Source of the DNA: a virus
Virus record (IMG/VR): IMGVR_UViG_3300047548_000092
Location: 1 to 23,302 of that record
Direction: 5' to 3' (one strand)
DNA: 23,302 nucleotides
The translations under genes were made by a program, and so were the position numbers. Below are positions 2,564 through 23,253 of this stretch, one piece after another. A model generated the notes under the pieces. That model had not been told where the DNA came from. It saw only the letters and a program-made list of their open reading frames with translations, and searched no databases. Within the stretch, counting starts at the first letter, position 1. Each line of letters begins with the position of its first letter.

Positions 2564-2742
2564 GCAAGATCCGTGAATACTACAAGGCCGAGGAACTCAA
2601 GCCCTTCGAGGGTCGCCCAGGCGCAATGGATGCGTTCAAGCTGCCGTCCGTGATGAACGGCGTAGCGCACCCTCGATTGGCACCGCGCATCATGAGCGCG
2701 ACCACCAAGATCCGATGGGTGCCGTCAAGCAGCGTCAGGTAG
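2560..2742 (+). CDS. 60-aa protein, last gene of the early array
   Basis: 60 aa from the ATG at 2560, set by AAGGAG at 2547-2552 and the ATGA overlap; the longer frame from 2386 is inside the upstream gene and is rejected. It begins MSKIREYYKAEELKPFEGRP and is basic overall. No family is recognised. Its last 8 bases overlap the convergent holin gene on the other strand, so no terminator separates the two arrays. Confidence 0.6.
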   Translation: MSKIREYYKAEELKPFEGRPGAMDAFKLPSVMNGVAHPRLAPRIMSATTKIRWVPSSSVR

Positions 2743-2902
2743 ACCGCTTGTCGTAGACTGACCACGCGACACCGGCGAGAGCAGACGCCCCGCCGATGAT
2801 GGCATCGATGCTGGCACCGTCGATGCCGTACTTCAGGGCCAGTGCCCCACCGACACCAGTCAGGATATGGCGCACGATGGCGGCCACGATAGATGCGTTC
2901 AT
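2735..2902 (-). CDS. Putative phage holin (Pam3-gp28-like)
   Basis: 55 aa. The ATG at 2902 is chosen for the GGAGAG site upstream and the ATGA overlap with the lysozyme stop; the longer reading to 2968 lies inside the lysozyme gene. Two hydrophobic segments are seen, about residues 3-25 (ASIVAAIVRHILTGVGGALA) and 32-48 (AIIGGASALAGVAW), with a basic end YDKRST. Size, the two membrane spans, R-H-x-L-T-x-x-G and the W-S-x-x-x-K-R end match small phage holins of the Pam3-gp28 type. It would form the membrane lesion that releases the lysozyme encoded just upstream. Confidence 0.75.
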   Translation of the reverse strand: MNASIVAAIVRHILTGVGGALALKYGIDGASIDAIIGGASALAGVAWSVYDKRST

Positions 2903-3324
2903 TTCCACTCTCCGGTTCTCATTTGATCGGCGAGTCGCTTGGCACGAGCAGGGGTCTGCTTCGCCCAAGCGCTCTCCAGCATTCTATTGGCGCCCTCGGC
3001 GTACTTGCCTGCCGCCACCAGCGCCAGCGTGTTCTTGAAGCTCAGAAGCCCGTTGGTGCCCATCTGGAAGGCCATGTTGAGCAGCACTCCCTGTCGGGCA
3101 CCGTCGAGCTTGCTGAACCACGGCAGCGCCTGAGTCAACGCTTTCGTGCGATCCGCGATGTCGTTGGCCAGCAGGTAGTCCACCTCGTCTGGACGCAGAC
3201 CACCCCCGCGCCGCTCATCGATCAGACGACCCACCCCGATGGTCAGGTAGCCGAGGTGATCCTGGTACGCGGCGTAGCGCACCCCTTCATCCCGCTTGAG
3301 TTGATCGACGATGTTGCGGATCAT
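2899..3324 (-). CDS. Endolysin, T4-type lysozyme (glycoside hydrolase family 24)
   Basis: 141 aa from the ATG at 3324, which overlaps the upstream stop as TGATG; the longer reading to 3399 is inside the previous gene. The T4 lysozyme triad is visible as E13 (KRDEG), D22 (YQD) and T28 (YLTIGVGR), with the later helix QGVLLNMAFQMG also typical. The enzyme cuts the N-acetylmuramic acid to N-acetylglucosamine bond of peptidoglycan. There is no signal peptide or signal-arrest segment, so it should wait in the cytoplasm and need a holin. The next gene downstream is a holin. Confidence 0.9.
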   Translation of the reverse strand: MIRNIVDQLKRDEGVRYAAYQDHLGYLTIGVGRLIDERRGGGLRPDEVDYLLANDIADRTKALTQALPWFSKLDGARQGVLLNMAFQMGTNGLLSFKNTLALVAAGKYAEGANRMLESAWAKQTPARAKRLADQMRTGEWK

Positions 3325-3545
3325 CAGTGAGGCTTCCAGTTGCTCAGAGCGAAGCCGATGAAGCCCGAGACAGCCGATGCCACAGTCATCCCGAACCACA
3401 GACCACCCTTGCCCTTGTTGGCAAGCGCGATCAGTTCGTCAAGTTGACCTTCCATCTTGGTGATCTTGCGGTCCATGTGCTGCACACGCTCCCACAAGAC
3501 ACCGTACTTCACTGGGTCGATTTCACCGTTCTGGAACTCCACCAT
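3324..3545 (-). CDS. Small membrane protein, possible second holin or antiholin
   Basis: 73 aa. The ATG at 3545 has a well-placed GAGG 6 nt upstream; a GTG one codon earlier is possible. The N-terminal two thirds is a charged, coiled-coil-like helix (YGVLWERVQHMDRKITKMEG, then LDELIALANK). The C-terminus is one membrane span (LWFGMTVASAVSGFIGFALS). This topology resembles XhlA-type lysis proteins and small membrane proteins found beside phage lysozymes. The exact role is inferred from its place immediately before the lysozyme. It is not a recognisable spanin. Confidence 0.6.
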   Translation of the reverse strand: MVEFQNGEIDPVKYGVLWERVQHMDRKITKMEGQLDELIALANKGKGGLWFGMTVASAVSGFIGFALSNWKPH

Positions 3546-21080: not shown

Positions 21081-22622
21081 TCAGGCTCCCATCCAAGAGG
21101 TTGTAACTGTTCCATTTTGCGCGTTGCGGCGCGGGACTGCGCGGTCATTGTACTCCCGATGTGCAACAGGAAACGCAAAAGTCACGGCGATGGCATCAGC
21201 GGCATCCGGTGAGGCCAATCCACGGGCTTTCATTTCCTTCTTGCCCTCCAAGAATATGGTGCCCGCAGAGTTGGGCTTCTTCATCGGCCCGATCAGATCC
21301 GCCTTGAGCAACCTGTCCTGCGGTAAACTGGCCGACTTGAGCCAGTCGCGCATGGCTCCCCAAATCTCGGCCCTCTTGTTGCCCCACATCACGGGATTTT
21401 TGGCTTTCCAGCCGAAGTTGACGCCGCGCACTTTGTACTTCTGCTCGGTGAGCCTGTCAAGGATGCCGTACCCGAGGCCACCCTCGTCGATCACAGTCAG
21501 TGCTGGGCGGTACTCCTCGATGGCGTCAATGACGTGGCCCACGGTGGTCATGGTGTCGTCACCCCGAAACCGCTTGATCGCCACGATGTCGCGCCCACGG
21601 CGCACGGCAATCACGGTGGAGTCCATGCCGCCCCGGGCCGGGTCCACGCCGATCACGATGGGTGCGGTCATGTCCTTGTACTGGGGGCGCTTCATGGCGT
21701 CATCGACGAGGTGGGGCGCGATGAACTGGTCTTGGCCGGACTTAGGGAAATCCCCATAGACCTCGACCCGGGCCTCGTCGGAGTCCTCGCCGTACTCCTC
21801 AATGATCTGCTGGTAGATGGTCTTGTCGGTTCCCTCGACTGTGCGGGCGTCGATCTTCTCGGATTCCCAAAAGTCGCGCTTGTTGCCGTCCACGGCCTCG
21901 TAGAAGTACCCGGTGTTGCGACGGCCGTTGGAGAACGCGAACCAGTACCGATCAAGGATGTTCTCCGTAAAGAAGCCCGCCGCCACGGACCAGATCGAGT
22001 CCGGGATACCCGAGGCTTCGTCGAAGATCACCATCATGCCGTCCATGTTGTGAACACCGGCGTAGGCGTCTGGGTTCTCCTCGCTCCACAGCTTGCCCTC
22101 GGCTCCCCAGTACCGGGTGCCTTTCTTGAGGTCACGCTCGACCAACTCGGTCAGCCACGCCGCTGGGTTCAGCGAGGTGGCCGTCGGCTCCCACCAGTGG
22201 GCGTTGATCGCCATCGTGACCCATTTGGTCAACTCACCCCATGTCACTTTGCGCAACTGGTTCTCGCTGTTGGCCGACACGATCACGCTGGAGCCGATGC
22301 GGGTGGTCAGCATCCACAGGATCAGCCACGACACGAGGGCAGACTTACCCACACCCCGGCCAGAGGACACAGCGCGGCGCAGGGCGTCGATCAGATCACC
22401 CTCGGTCAGTTTGCCCCGGTTGTCGCGGATGAACTGTGCGATGCGGCGAAGGGTTCTGCGCTGCCACGCCCGGGGTGCTTTGAAGTGTTCGAGTGGGGTG
22501 TTCTTCTGTCCCCAAGGGAACGCGAACAGAACGAACGCCTCGGGGTCGTCCTTAATGTTCGGACTCCACAACTGCGACATCAGCAGTTGCTCCTCCTCGG
22601 GCGAGTAGCGCATCTTCTGCAT
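21081..22622 (-). CDS. terL: Terminase large subunit
   Basis: 513 aa from the ATG at 22622, which overlaps the stop of the 22-aa ORF as TGATG; a TTG at 22634 is the alternative start. The ATPase domain shows Walker A SGRGVGKS at about 87-94 and Walker B MVIFDEA near 197-203 with catalytic E just after D. The nuclease domain shows VIGVDPARGG (D about 327), VIDEGG (D/E about 379-380) and SPDAADAI (D about 473 and 476), the usual acidic set. The protein pumps DNA into the procapsid through the portal and cuts the concatemer. Confidence 0.95.
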   Translation of the reverse strand: MQKMRYSPEEEQLLMSQLWSPNIKDDPEAFVLFAFPWGQKNTPLEHFKAPRAWQRRTLRRIAQFIRDNRGKLTEGDLIDALRRAVSSGRGVGKSALVSWLILWMLTTRIGSSVIVSANSENQLRKVTWGELTKWVTMAINAHWWEPTATSLNPAAWLTELVERDLKKGTRYWGAEGKLWSEENPDAYAGVHNMDGMMVIFDEASGIPDSIWSVAAGFFTENILDRYWFAFSNGRRNTGYFYEAVDGNKRDFWESEKIDARTVEGTDKTIYQQIIEEYGEDSDEARVEVYGDFPKSGQDQFIAPHLVDDAMKRPQYKDMTAPIVIGVDPARGGMDSTVIAVRRGRDIVAIKRFRGDDTMTTVGHVIDAIEEYRPALTVIDEGGLGYGILDRLTEQKYKVRGVNFGWKAKNPVMWGNKRAEIWGAMRDWLKSASLPQDRLLKADLIGPMKKPNSAGTIFLEGKKEMKARGLASPDAADAIAVTFAFPVAHREYNDRAVPRRNAQNGTVTTSWMGA

Positions 22623-22690
22623 CAGGTCATCCAATCGCCAACGGCGTTTGCCAGCAGTACGACCACCAGCCCAATCAGGATCATCGTCAT
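22622..22690 (-). CDS. 22-aa hydrophobic peptide ORF between terS and terL
   Basis: A 22-codon ORF too short for usual gene callers. Its ATG at 22690 overlaps the terS stop as ATGA, and its TGA overlaps the terL ATG as TGATG. A perfect GGAGG (22698-22702) lies 7 nt upstream, stronger than the sites of its neighbours. The peptide has MILIGLVVVLLANAVG, enough for one short membrane span, then DWMT. It may be a true membrane peptide or only a leader that couples terS and terL translation. Confidence 0.55.
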   Translation of the reverse strand: MTMILIGLVVVLLANAVGDWMT

Positions 22691-23253
22691 GAGTTGTCCT
22701 CCAGTCTCGGGGTCACATCGACCACCTCTGCCTCGATCACCCGGGCTTGGGCCTGCGCCAGCGCCTCAGTGATCGAGATCGTCCCACCCAACTCGATCTG
22801 CTTGGTTTCCCCATAGCGTTTCTTGTTGTGGGCACCCATGAGCCACTTGCGCGTGTCGATGCGCAGCTTGTCGCGGTTCACCGTGTCGTTTGATTGCGGG
22901 TCAACCGCTTCGACCCCATCGGCAATCTCAAGAATCTCCCCGGCCATGAACTCGGTGCGCATCTCCTGTGCCTCCTTGAATCGCTCGTGGCGCTGGGGGT
23001 CGCGCTTGATCCAGCGCAGGAAGTCCTCATAGGACACGACTCGATGGTCGTCCTCGATCAAGGACTGAAGGGAGCGGCCACGATAGATGTCCTCGATCAC
23101 CCGTTCGAAGATTTGCTCATATTCGAGGTGCAGCAGTTCACGCGCCGACTTGCTGGGGCGCGGGGGCTTGGGGTCTGGGCACGATAGCCAGCTTGGCAGT
23201 GGAGTTTCACCGGTGACAACCGTGCCTACGGATGCGGGGTTTGCGTGTTCCAT
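22687..23253 (-). CDS. terS: Terminase small subunit (Sf6-type)
   Basis: 188 aa. The middle RGRSLQSLIEDDHRVVSYED, FLRWIKRDPQRHERFKEAQE and EILEIADG, followed by RDKLRIDTRKWLMGAHNKKR and YGETKQIEL, is the pattern of the Sf6-type small terminase family: a helix-turn-helix-like N-terminal domain and a helical oligomer core. It recognises the packaging site and feeds DNA to the large subunit. The first ~35 residues (Pro-rich, VVTGETPLPSWLSCPDPKPP) look like a flexible extension. No ribosome site is seen before the ATG at 23253, and the frame stays open to the window edge, so the true start may lie outside. Confidence 0.88.
   Translation of the reverse strand: MEHANPASVGTVVTGETPLPSWLSCPDPKPPRPSKSARELLHLEYEQIFERVIEDIYRGRSLQSLIEDDHRVVSYEDFLRWIKRDPQRHERFKEAQEMRTEFMAGEILEIADGVEAVDPQSNDTVNRDKLRIDTRKWLMGAHNKKRYGETKQIELGGTISITEALAQAQARVIEAEVVDVTPRLEDNS
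22698..22702 (-). promoter_or_regulatory. Strong ribosome site for the 22-aa ORF
   Basis: GGAGG on the minus strand, 7 nt before the ATG at 22690. It sits inside the end of terS and decides that the small ORF, and through overlap terL, is translated from here. Confidence 0.7.

Follow-up and report, generated by a model that had tools for sequence, protein, structure and literature searches.

A hydrophobic micro-ORF between terS and terL as a probable optional gene for a membrane micropeptide in aquatic podovirus-like phages

The window, that is, the whole stretch of 23,302 nucleotides analyzed here (IMG/VR virus record IMGVR_UViG_3300047548_000092), carries on its minus strand terS, a 22-codon micro-ORF and terL, in this order (Table 1). 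When the sequence was re-read, the position of the micro-ORF, its GGAGG motif with 7-nt spacing and the ATGA and TGATG overlaps were all exactly as given in the original prediction, which had also regarded the Shine-Dalgarno (SD) site of terL as weak. The latter is borne out by the anti-SD duplex energy, which was −9.3 kcal/mol at the micro-ORF start versus −3.1 kcal/mol at the terL start, the median at terL being −5.8 kcal/mol in 98 relatives in which terL is joined directly to a preceding long ORF, terS in nearly all cases. The terL SD was weak in most micro-ORF carriers as well as in the window. It is likely from this arrangement that translation of terL depends on coupling through the micro-ORF.

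Table 1. Features of the window junction and tiny hydrophobic peptide types at the junctions of related loci
Feature	Coordinates	Strand	Description
terS, small terminase subunit, Sf6-like	23253..22687	(-)	188 aa; phrog_1482, E 3.6e-25; PF20901 (Sf6_terminase), E 8e-21
Shine-Dalgarno GGAGG	22702..22698	(-)	Within final terS codons, 7 nt upstream of micro-ORF ATG
ATGA overlap	22687..22690	(-)	terS stop (22689..22687) and micro-ORF start
Micro-ORF	22690..22622	(-)	Predicted single-pass membrane peptide, 22 aa, MTMILIGLVVVLLANAVGDWMT; ATG start, TGA stop
TGATG overlap	22620..22624	(-)	Micro-ORF stop and terL start; A at 22622 common to TGA and ATG
terL, large terminase subunit	22622..21081	(-)	513 aa; N-terminus MQKMRYSP; phrog_2, E 5e-41; start common to relatives
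L011 type (duplicate L108)			MSYIVLAVAYTIVYMAIKRIW
L012 (duplicate L121), L024 (duplicate L126), L225, L348 type			MTVIIGAVIVLFVAYVAERLW-like
L037 type (duplicate L134)			32-aa ORF, basic N-terminus
L043 type (duplicate L087)			MTILYAVLFVVAARLLIDLWFD
L046 type (duplicate L086)			MIVFVNIALLAVGLIVLDWLLDWWFD
L047 type			MITIVLMLVGLILLDWLLDAWFE
L075 type			MKLLLLCLVVLAIVWFIEWVFG
L078 type (duplicate L152)			MKLVLLVIAMVVVIWIVNGLFD
L173 type			MFRLLIIVVFLIVVTFVADLILD

Judged by a hydropathy scale, the micro-ORF product is predicted to be a single membrane-spanning segment. Its KD15 value was 2.84, compared with 2.67 for its ortholog in locus L001 and a range of 2.1–3.5 across all junction types. After shuffling of its bases the frame remained open in 41% of cases, and equal hydrophobicity was reached in ~0.01% of the open ones. 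An AT-richness effect has been cautioned against (PMC11188072); the hydrophobicity observed here is not such an effect, since the GC content of the micro-ORF is 55%. KD values of at least 2.0 were reached by only ~3% of the ATG ORFs of 18–32 aa in these loci, and the micro-ORF was the sole short ORF in the whole window that combined an SD with a KD value above 2.1.

The L001 ortholog, MTTVLIGVVVVLLANALGDWMT (same contig as L111/L211), differs from the window micro-ORF by 11 nucleotide changes, distributed 3/1/7 over the three codon positions. These result in four amino acid changes, of which three are conservative and the exception is M3T. So few amino acid changes were obtained in 2.6% of neutral simulations (P = 0.026), which is moderately significant and refers to one ortholog pair. 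Conservation of the peptide in relatives had been proposed originally as a check, and this pair provides it at the protein level. In addition, L001 has ACG where the window ORF has its second in-frame ATG, and therefore the first, overlapping ATG is the likely start. A degenerate-DNA search of viral contigs for the window peptide recovered L001 as the only close ortholog; a match to the pattern in L212 was rejected as a chance hit inside a tape-measure-like gene. No match was obtained by tblastn of the window peptide against named phages, nor in PHROGs for the window peptide or the L012-type peptide.

Counting that of the window, ten sequence types of tiny hydrophobic ORF (21–32 aa) were found that either end at terL or sit between terS and terL; the nine others (also 21–32 aa; Table 1) typically have D/E and W/F near the C-terminus. 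The six C-terminal residues of the types show an enrichment of tryptophan (8/60, P 0.005), as expected of a membrane-interface anchor. Across the types the hydrophobicity is frame specific, with T making up 45–77% of bases at codon position 2 versus 5–33% at position 1, and base shuffles of the junction types matched their hydrophobicity in 0–1.1% of open frames. The L075 and L078 types differ from each other by 26 nucleotides and are both strongly hydrophobic, a property kept by 0.02% of neutral mutants, whereas pairs within the L012 type alone showed no significant constraint (P 0.07–0.46). A hydrophobic stretch of ~15–20 residues is kept across the types, as in single-pass membrane micropeptides. 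Peptides as short as 22 residues are compatible with both common ancestry and separate arrival of the ten types.

We also scanned the terL strand of all 210 loci, 1.18 Mb in total, for hydrophobic ORFs of 17–36 aa preceded by an SD. Of the 14 distinct ORFs obtained, 11 lay between terS and terL, 10 of these with their stop at the start of terL, and the other 3 were located in different places; the ORFs of L011 and L037 lie slightly below the threshold and are not among the 11. Ten of the 14 were within 100 nt of terL (P ~3e-15, a value overstated because the carriers are related). Although related carriers are not independent, these data argue strongly for an association of tiny hydrophobic ORFs with the terS–terL junction. 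Considering the constraint on the L001 ortholog, the nine other types in the same place and the 11 of 14 tiny hydrophobic ORFs located at the junction, the micro-ORF is almost certainly a gene.

The distribution of this gene was analyzed using 210 distinct junctions, which came from scanning viral contigs five times for TerL and from matches among named phages. TerL identity was 76% or higher for 126 junctions; of these, 73 had terS joined directly to terL (excluding eight without detectable TerS homology, which have other ORFs or very divergent terS), 13 including the window had a tiny hydrophobic ORF, and the remainder had other or unresolved inserts. In the direct relatives terS ends on the terL start, nearly always with TGATG. 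Such relatives, which keep terS–terL and lack the ORF, had been named beforehand as evidence against it; as most relatives are of this kind, the micro-ORF is dispensable, but this does not make it noncoding. One of them, L002, has a TerL 97% identical to that of the window, and its terS tail, ...GGAGGACAACTCATG, is the same as that upstream of the window micro-ORF and joins terL directly. When the two loci are read together, the micro-ORF appears to have entered precisely where stop and start overlap, capturing the SD and re-creating the overlap.

On the TerL tree, presence of the micro-ORF needs at least 9–11 gains or losses, and the L012-type cassette is also found in phages of clearly different TerL, one of them with TerL only 80% identical to that of the window. 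By these comparisons, the distribution is patchy and partly horizontal. The gene is present or absent among close relatives with its flanks intact, which is the behavior of accessory cargo, and it can be regarded as neither essential nor a fixed leader. The carriers belong to a clade of aquatic podovirus-like phages of an Sf6/epsilon15-like terminase lineage. None of the named relatives examined carries the micro-ORF, including DSL-LC05, the nearest one, and the terS–terL gap of ~110 nt in Vibrio phage 1.185.O contains no hydrophobic ORF. The bacterial genome collection gave one partial relative only, which lacks the junction. It should be noted that a classical moron has its own promoter and terminator; the micro-ORF overlaps both neighbors, leaving no intergenic space for either, so the label 'moron-like' would apply only loosely.

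Other genes occupy the same place among relatives. A Mom-like DNA-modification gene (PF25680, phrog_1384), which ends 9 nt upstream of the terL start, was found in L183, L186 and L209, and therefore anti-restriction cargo shares the slot. An HNH-AP2 endonuclease gene is present in L025, an RNase H-like protein gene in L001, and several further unassigned genes were also observed. In most carriers the micro-ORF is immediately upstream of terL; two genes lie between them in L001, and other genes lie between terS and the micro-ORF in L012, L024, L225 and L173. On the basis of these gene contents, the terS–terL junction is an accessory-gene slot, in which tiny membrane peptides are the commonest recognizable cargo. 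The 127-aa ORF that precedes the micro-ORF in L012, L024 and L225 has a HEAVH motif and belongs to phrog_882, whose function is not annotated; the motif suggests a metallopeptidase-like protein that travels with the L012-type micro-ORF. A recurring hydrophilic micro-ORF, MSDGGKGSAPRPIPDPQKFRDNWDAIFGKK (31–32 aa), was observed at the L012, L014, L019, L024, L159 and L348 junctions. It is nearly identical across phages of different TerL and represents a second, non-membrane microprotein in the slot.

A membrane peptide made together with the packaging enzymes had been described as unfamiliar from other phages. This view cannot be maintained, as the small membrane-associated genes 18.5 and 18.7 of T7 (Rz/Rz1-like spanins) lie between gene 18 (terS) and gene 19 (terL) in the late operon. 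The T7 spanins have ~80–140 codons with one ORF nested in the other, whereas the window has an optional single hydrophobic segment of 22 aa that overlaps both neighbors in an Sf6/epsilon15-like terminase lineage. Given the T7 genes, membrane genes at this position are not new, and the micro-ORF arrangement is a variation on something known. The Uetakevirus phages epsilon15 and BUCT554 resemble the window in their overlapping terS and terL and their related TerL (~35% identity) and differ in having a direct ATGA overlap with no intervening gene. Unannotated small phage genes are reportedly abundant, small-ORF genes having been predicted in phage genomes (Fremin et al. 2022, cited in PMC11188072). 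A literature search, with the key survey of small phage genes outside its scope, revealed no paper on a tiny membrane-peptide gene at the terS–terL junction. With respect to size and hydrophobic single-helix character, the peptide is similar to the type I toxin peptides IbsC (19 aa) and ShoB (26 aa) of E. coli, which demonstrate that peptides of this size can act on membranes (PMC8309996). Those toxins are silenced by antisense RNAs, whereas the window micro-ORF is coupled inside an operon.

Taken together, we consider it probable that the micro-ORF is a real, translated and optional gene, which encodes a single-pass inner-membrane micropeptide in an accessory terS–terL slot of aquatic podovirus-like phages. 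The SD at the end of terS would serve terL directly where the insert is lacking, and the insert would have captured it. Ribosomes would start on the micro-ORF both at this strong SD and by coupling from terS, and once the peptide is made they would pass through TGATG to reinitiate on terL, so that terminase would still be made in step. The peptide would then insert into the inner membrane late in infection. With less confidence, it might act there on the host envelope, most likely by adjusting membrane energetics or the time of lysis, with a separate holin alongside, or by keeping out superinfecting phage. The present analysis does not distinguish lysis tuning from superinfection exclusion.

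These two roles correspond to specific forms of the same explanation. Membership of the lysis cassette, as a minimal pinholin, antiholin or depolarizing peptide, is a tentative possibility that does not exclude the general reading; the location of the T7 spanins and the ability of the 19-aa IbsC to depolarize E. coli membranes (PMC8309996) are in its favor. On the other hand, most relatives manage without the micro-ORF. Genes for Phage_holin_10 and lysozyme are found ~20 kb away in the window, and the holin family is present in two other carriers as well; the micro-ORF is thus probably not the main holin. The peptide does not qualify as a holin, having no PHROGs match and not being the only holin candidate of the window, nor as a spanin (Rz/Rz1), as it totals 22 aa and has no Cys, no lipobox and no periplasmic domain. 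The lysis cassette itself, with overlapping lysozyme (PF00959) and Phage_holin_10 genes, lies at 2735–3399 (-) of the window, far from the micro-ORF. A superinfection-exclusion or counter-defense peptide carried as slot cargo is a rather doubtful option: the Mom-like, HNH-AP2 endonuclease and other cargo in the slot and the patchy, partly horizontal distribution fit it, but no homolog of known function or PHROGs match was found, and early expression, or expression from the prophage, is more usual for exclusion genes. It appears improbable that this class of ~22-residue peptides works specifically with DNA packaging, for instance by bringing terminase or packaging itself to the membrane, or by timing lysis through the sensing of packaging, a role that would explain why tiny hydrophobic ORFs gather at terS–terL and hardly anywhere else in the neighboring several kb.

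The original prediction had allowed for either a membrane peptide or a leader that sets the TerS:TerL ratio. The constrained ortholog and the nine other types in the slot support the former. The latter, in which the act of translation would set the ratio and the peptide would be a by-product, is unlikely as the main function, even though the ATGA/TGATG coupling is perfect, the strong SD belongs to the micro-ORF and the weak one to terL, and the micro-ORF directly precedes terL in most carriers. A relay would have no need of a hydrophobic peptide, yet 10 out of 10 sequence types are hydrophobic; genes intervene before terL or after terS in the five loci named above; coupling of terS to terL does without a micro-ORF in most relatives; and the RNA structure at the junction is ordinary (z −0.5). 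A pure leader is disfavored because the character of the peptide is kept while its position is not. A chance ORF, or an unselected relic of an inserted gene, would be consistent with absence from most relatives and a single close ortholog among viral contigs, but it is very improbable in view of the 3/1/7 codon-position pattern with mostly conservative changes, the rarity of such hydrophobicity among shuffled sequences and the recurrence at a single junction.

The membrane-micropeptide reading would mean that a class of genes recurs at a phage junction that has been studied intensively, where length-limited annotation would miss such ORFs; a tiny hydrophobic ORF filling the terS–terL overlap could serve as a search rule for more of them. 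It also suggests a route by which genes may enter a tightly coupled operon, the newcomer taking the upstream SD and restoring TGATG so that translation is unbroken. Should the peptides have a role in lysis or packaging, few functional phage proteins would be smaller. Elsewhere on the minus strand of the window, a GroES-like co-chaperonin gene (PF00166, phrog_3188) lies between terL and the portal gene (20682–20930), and a gene for a DUF5856 protein adjoins the portal gene (18150–18512).
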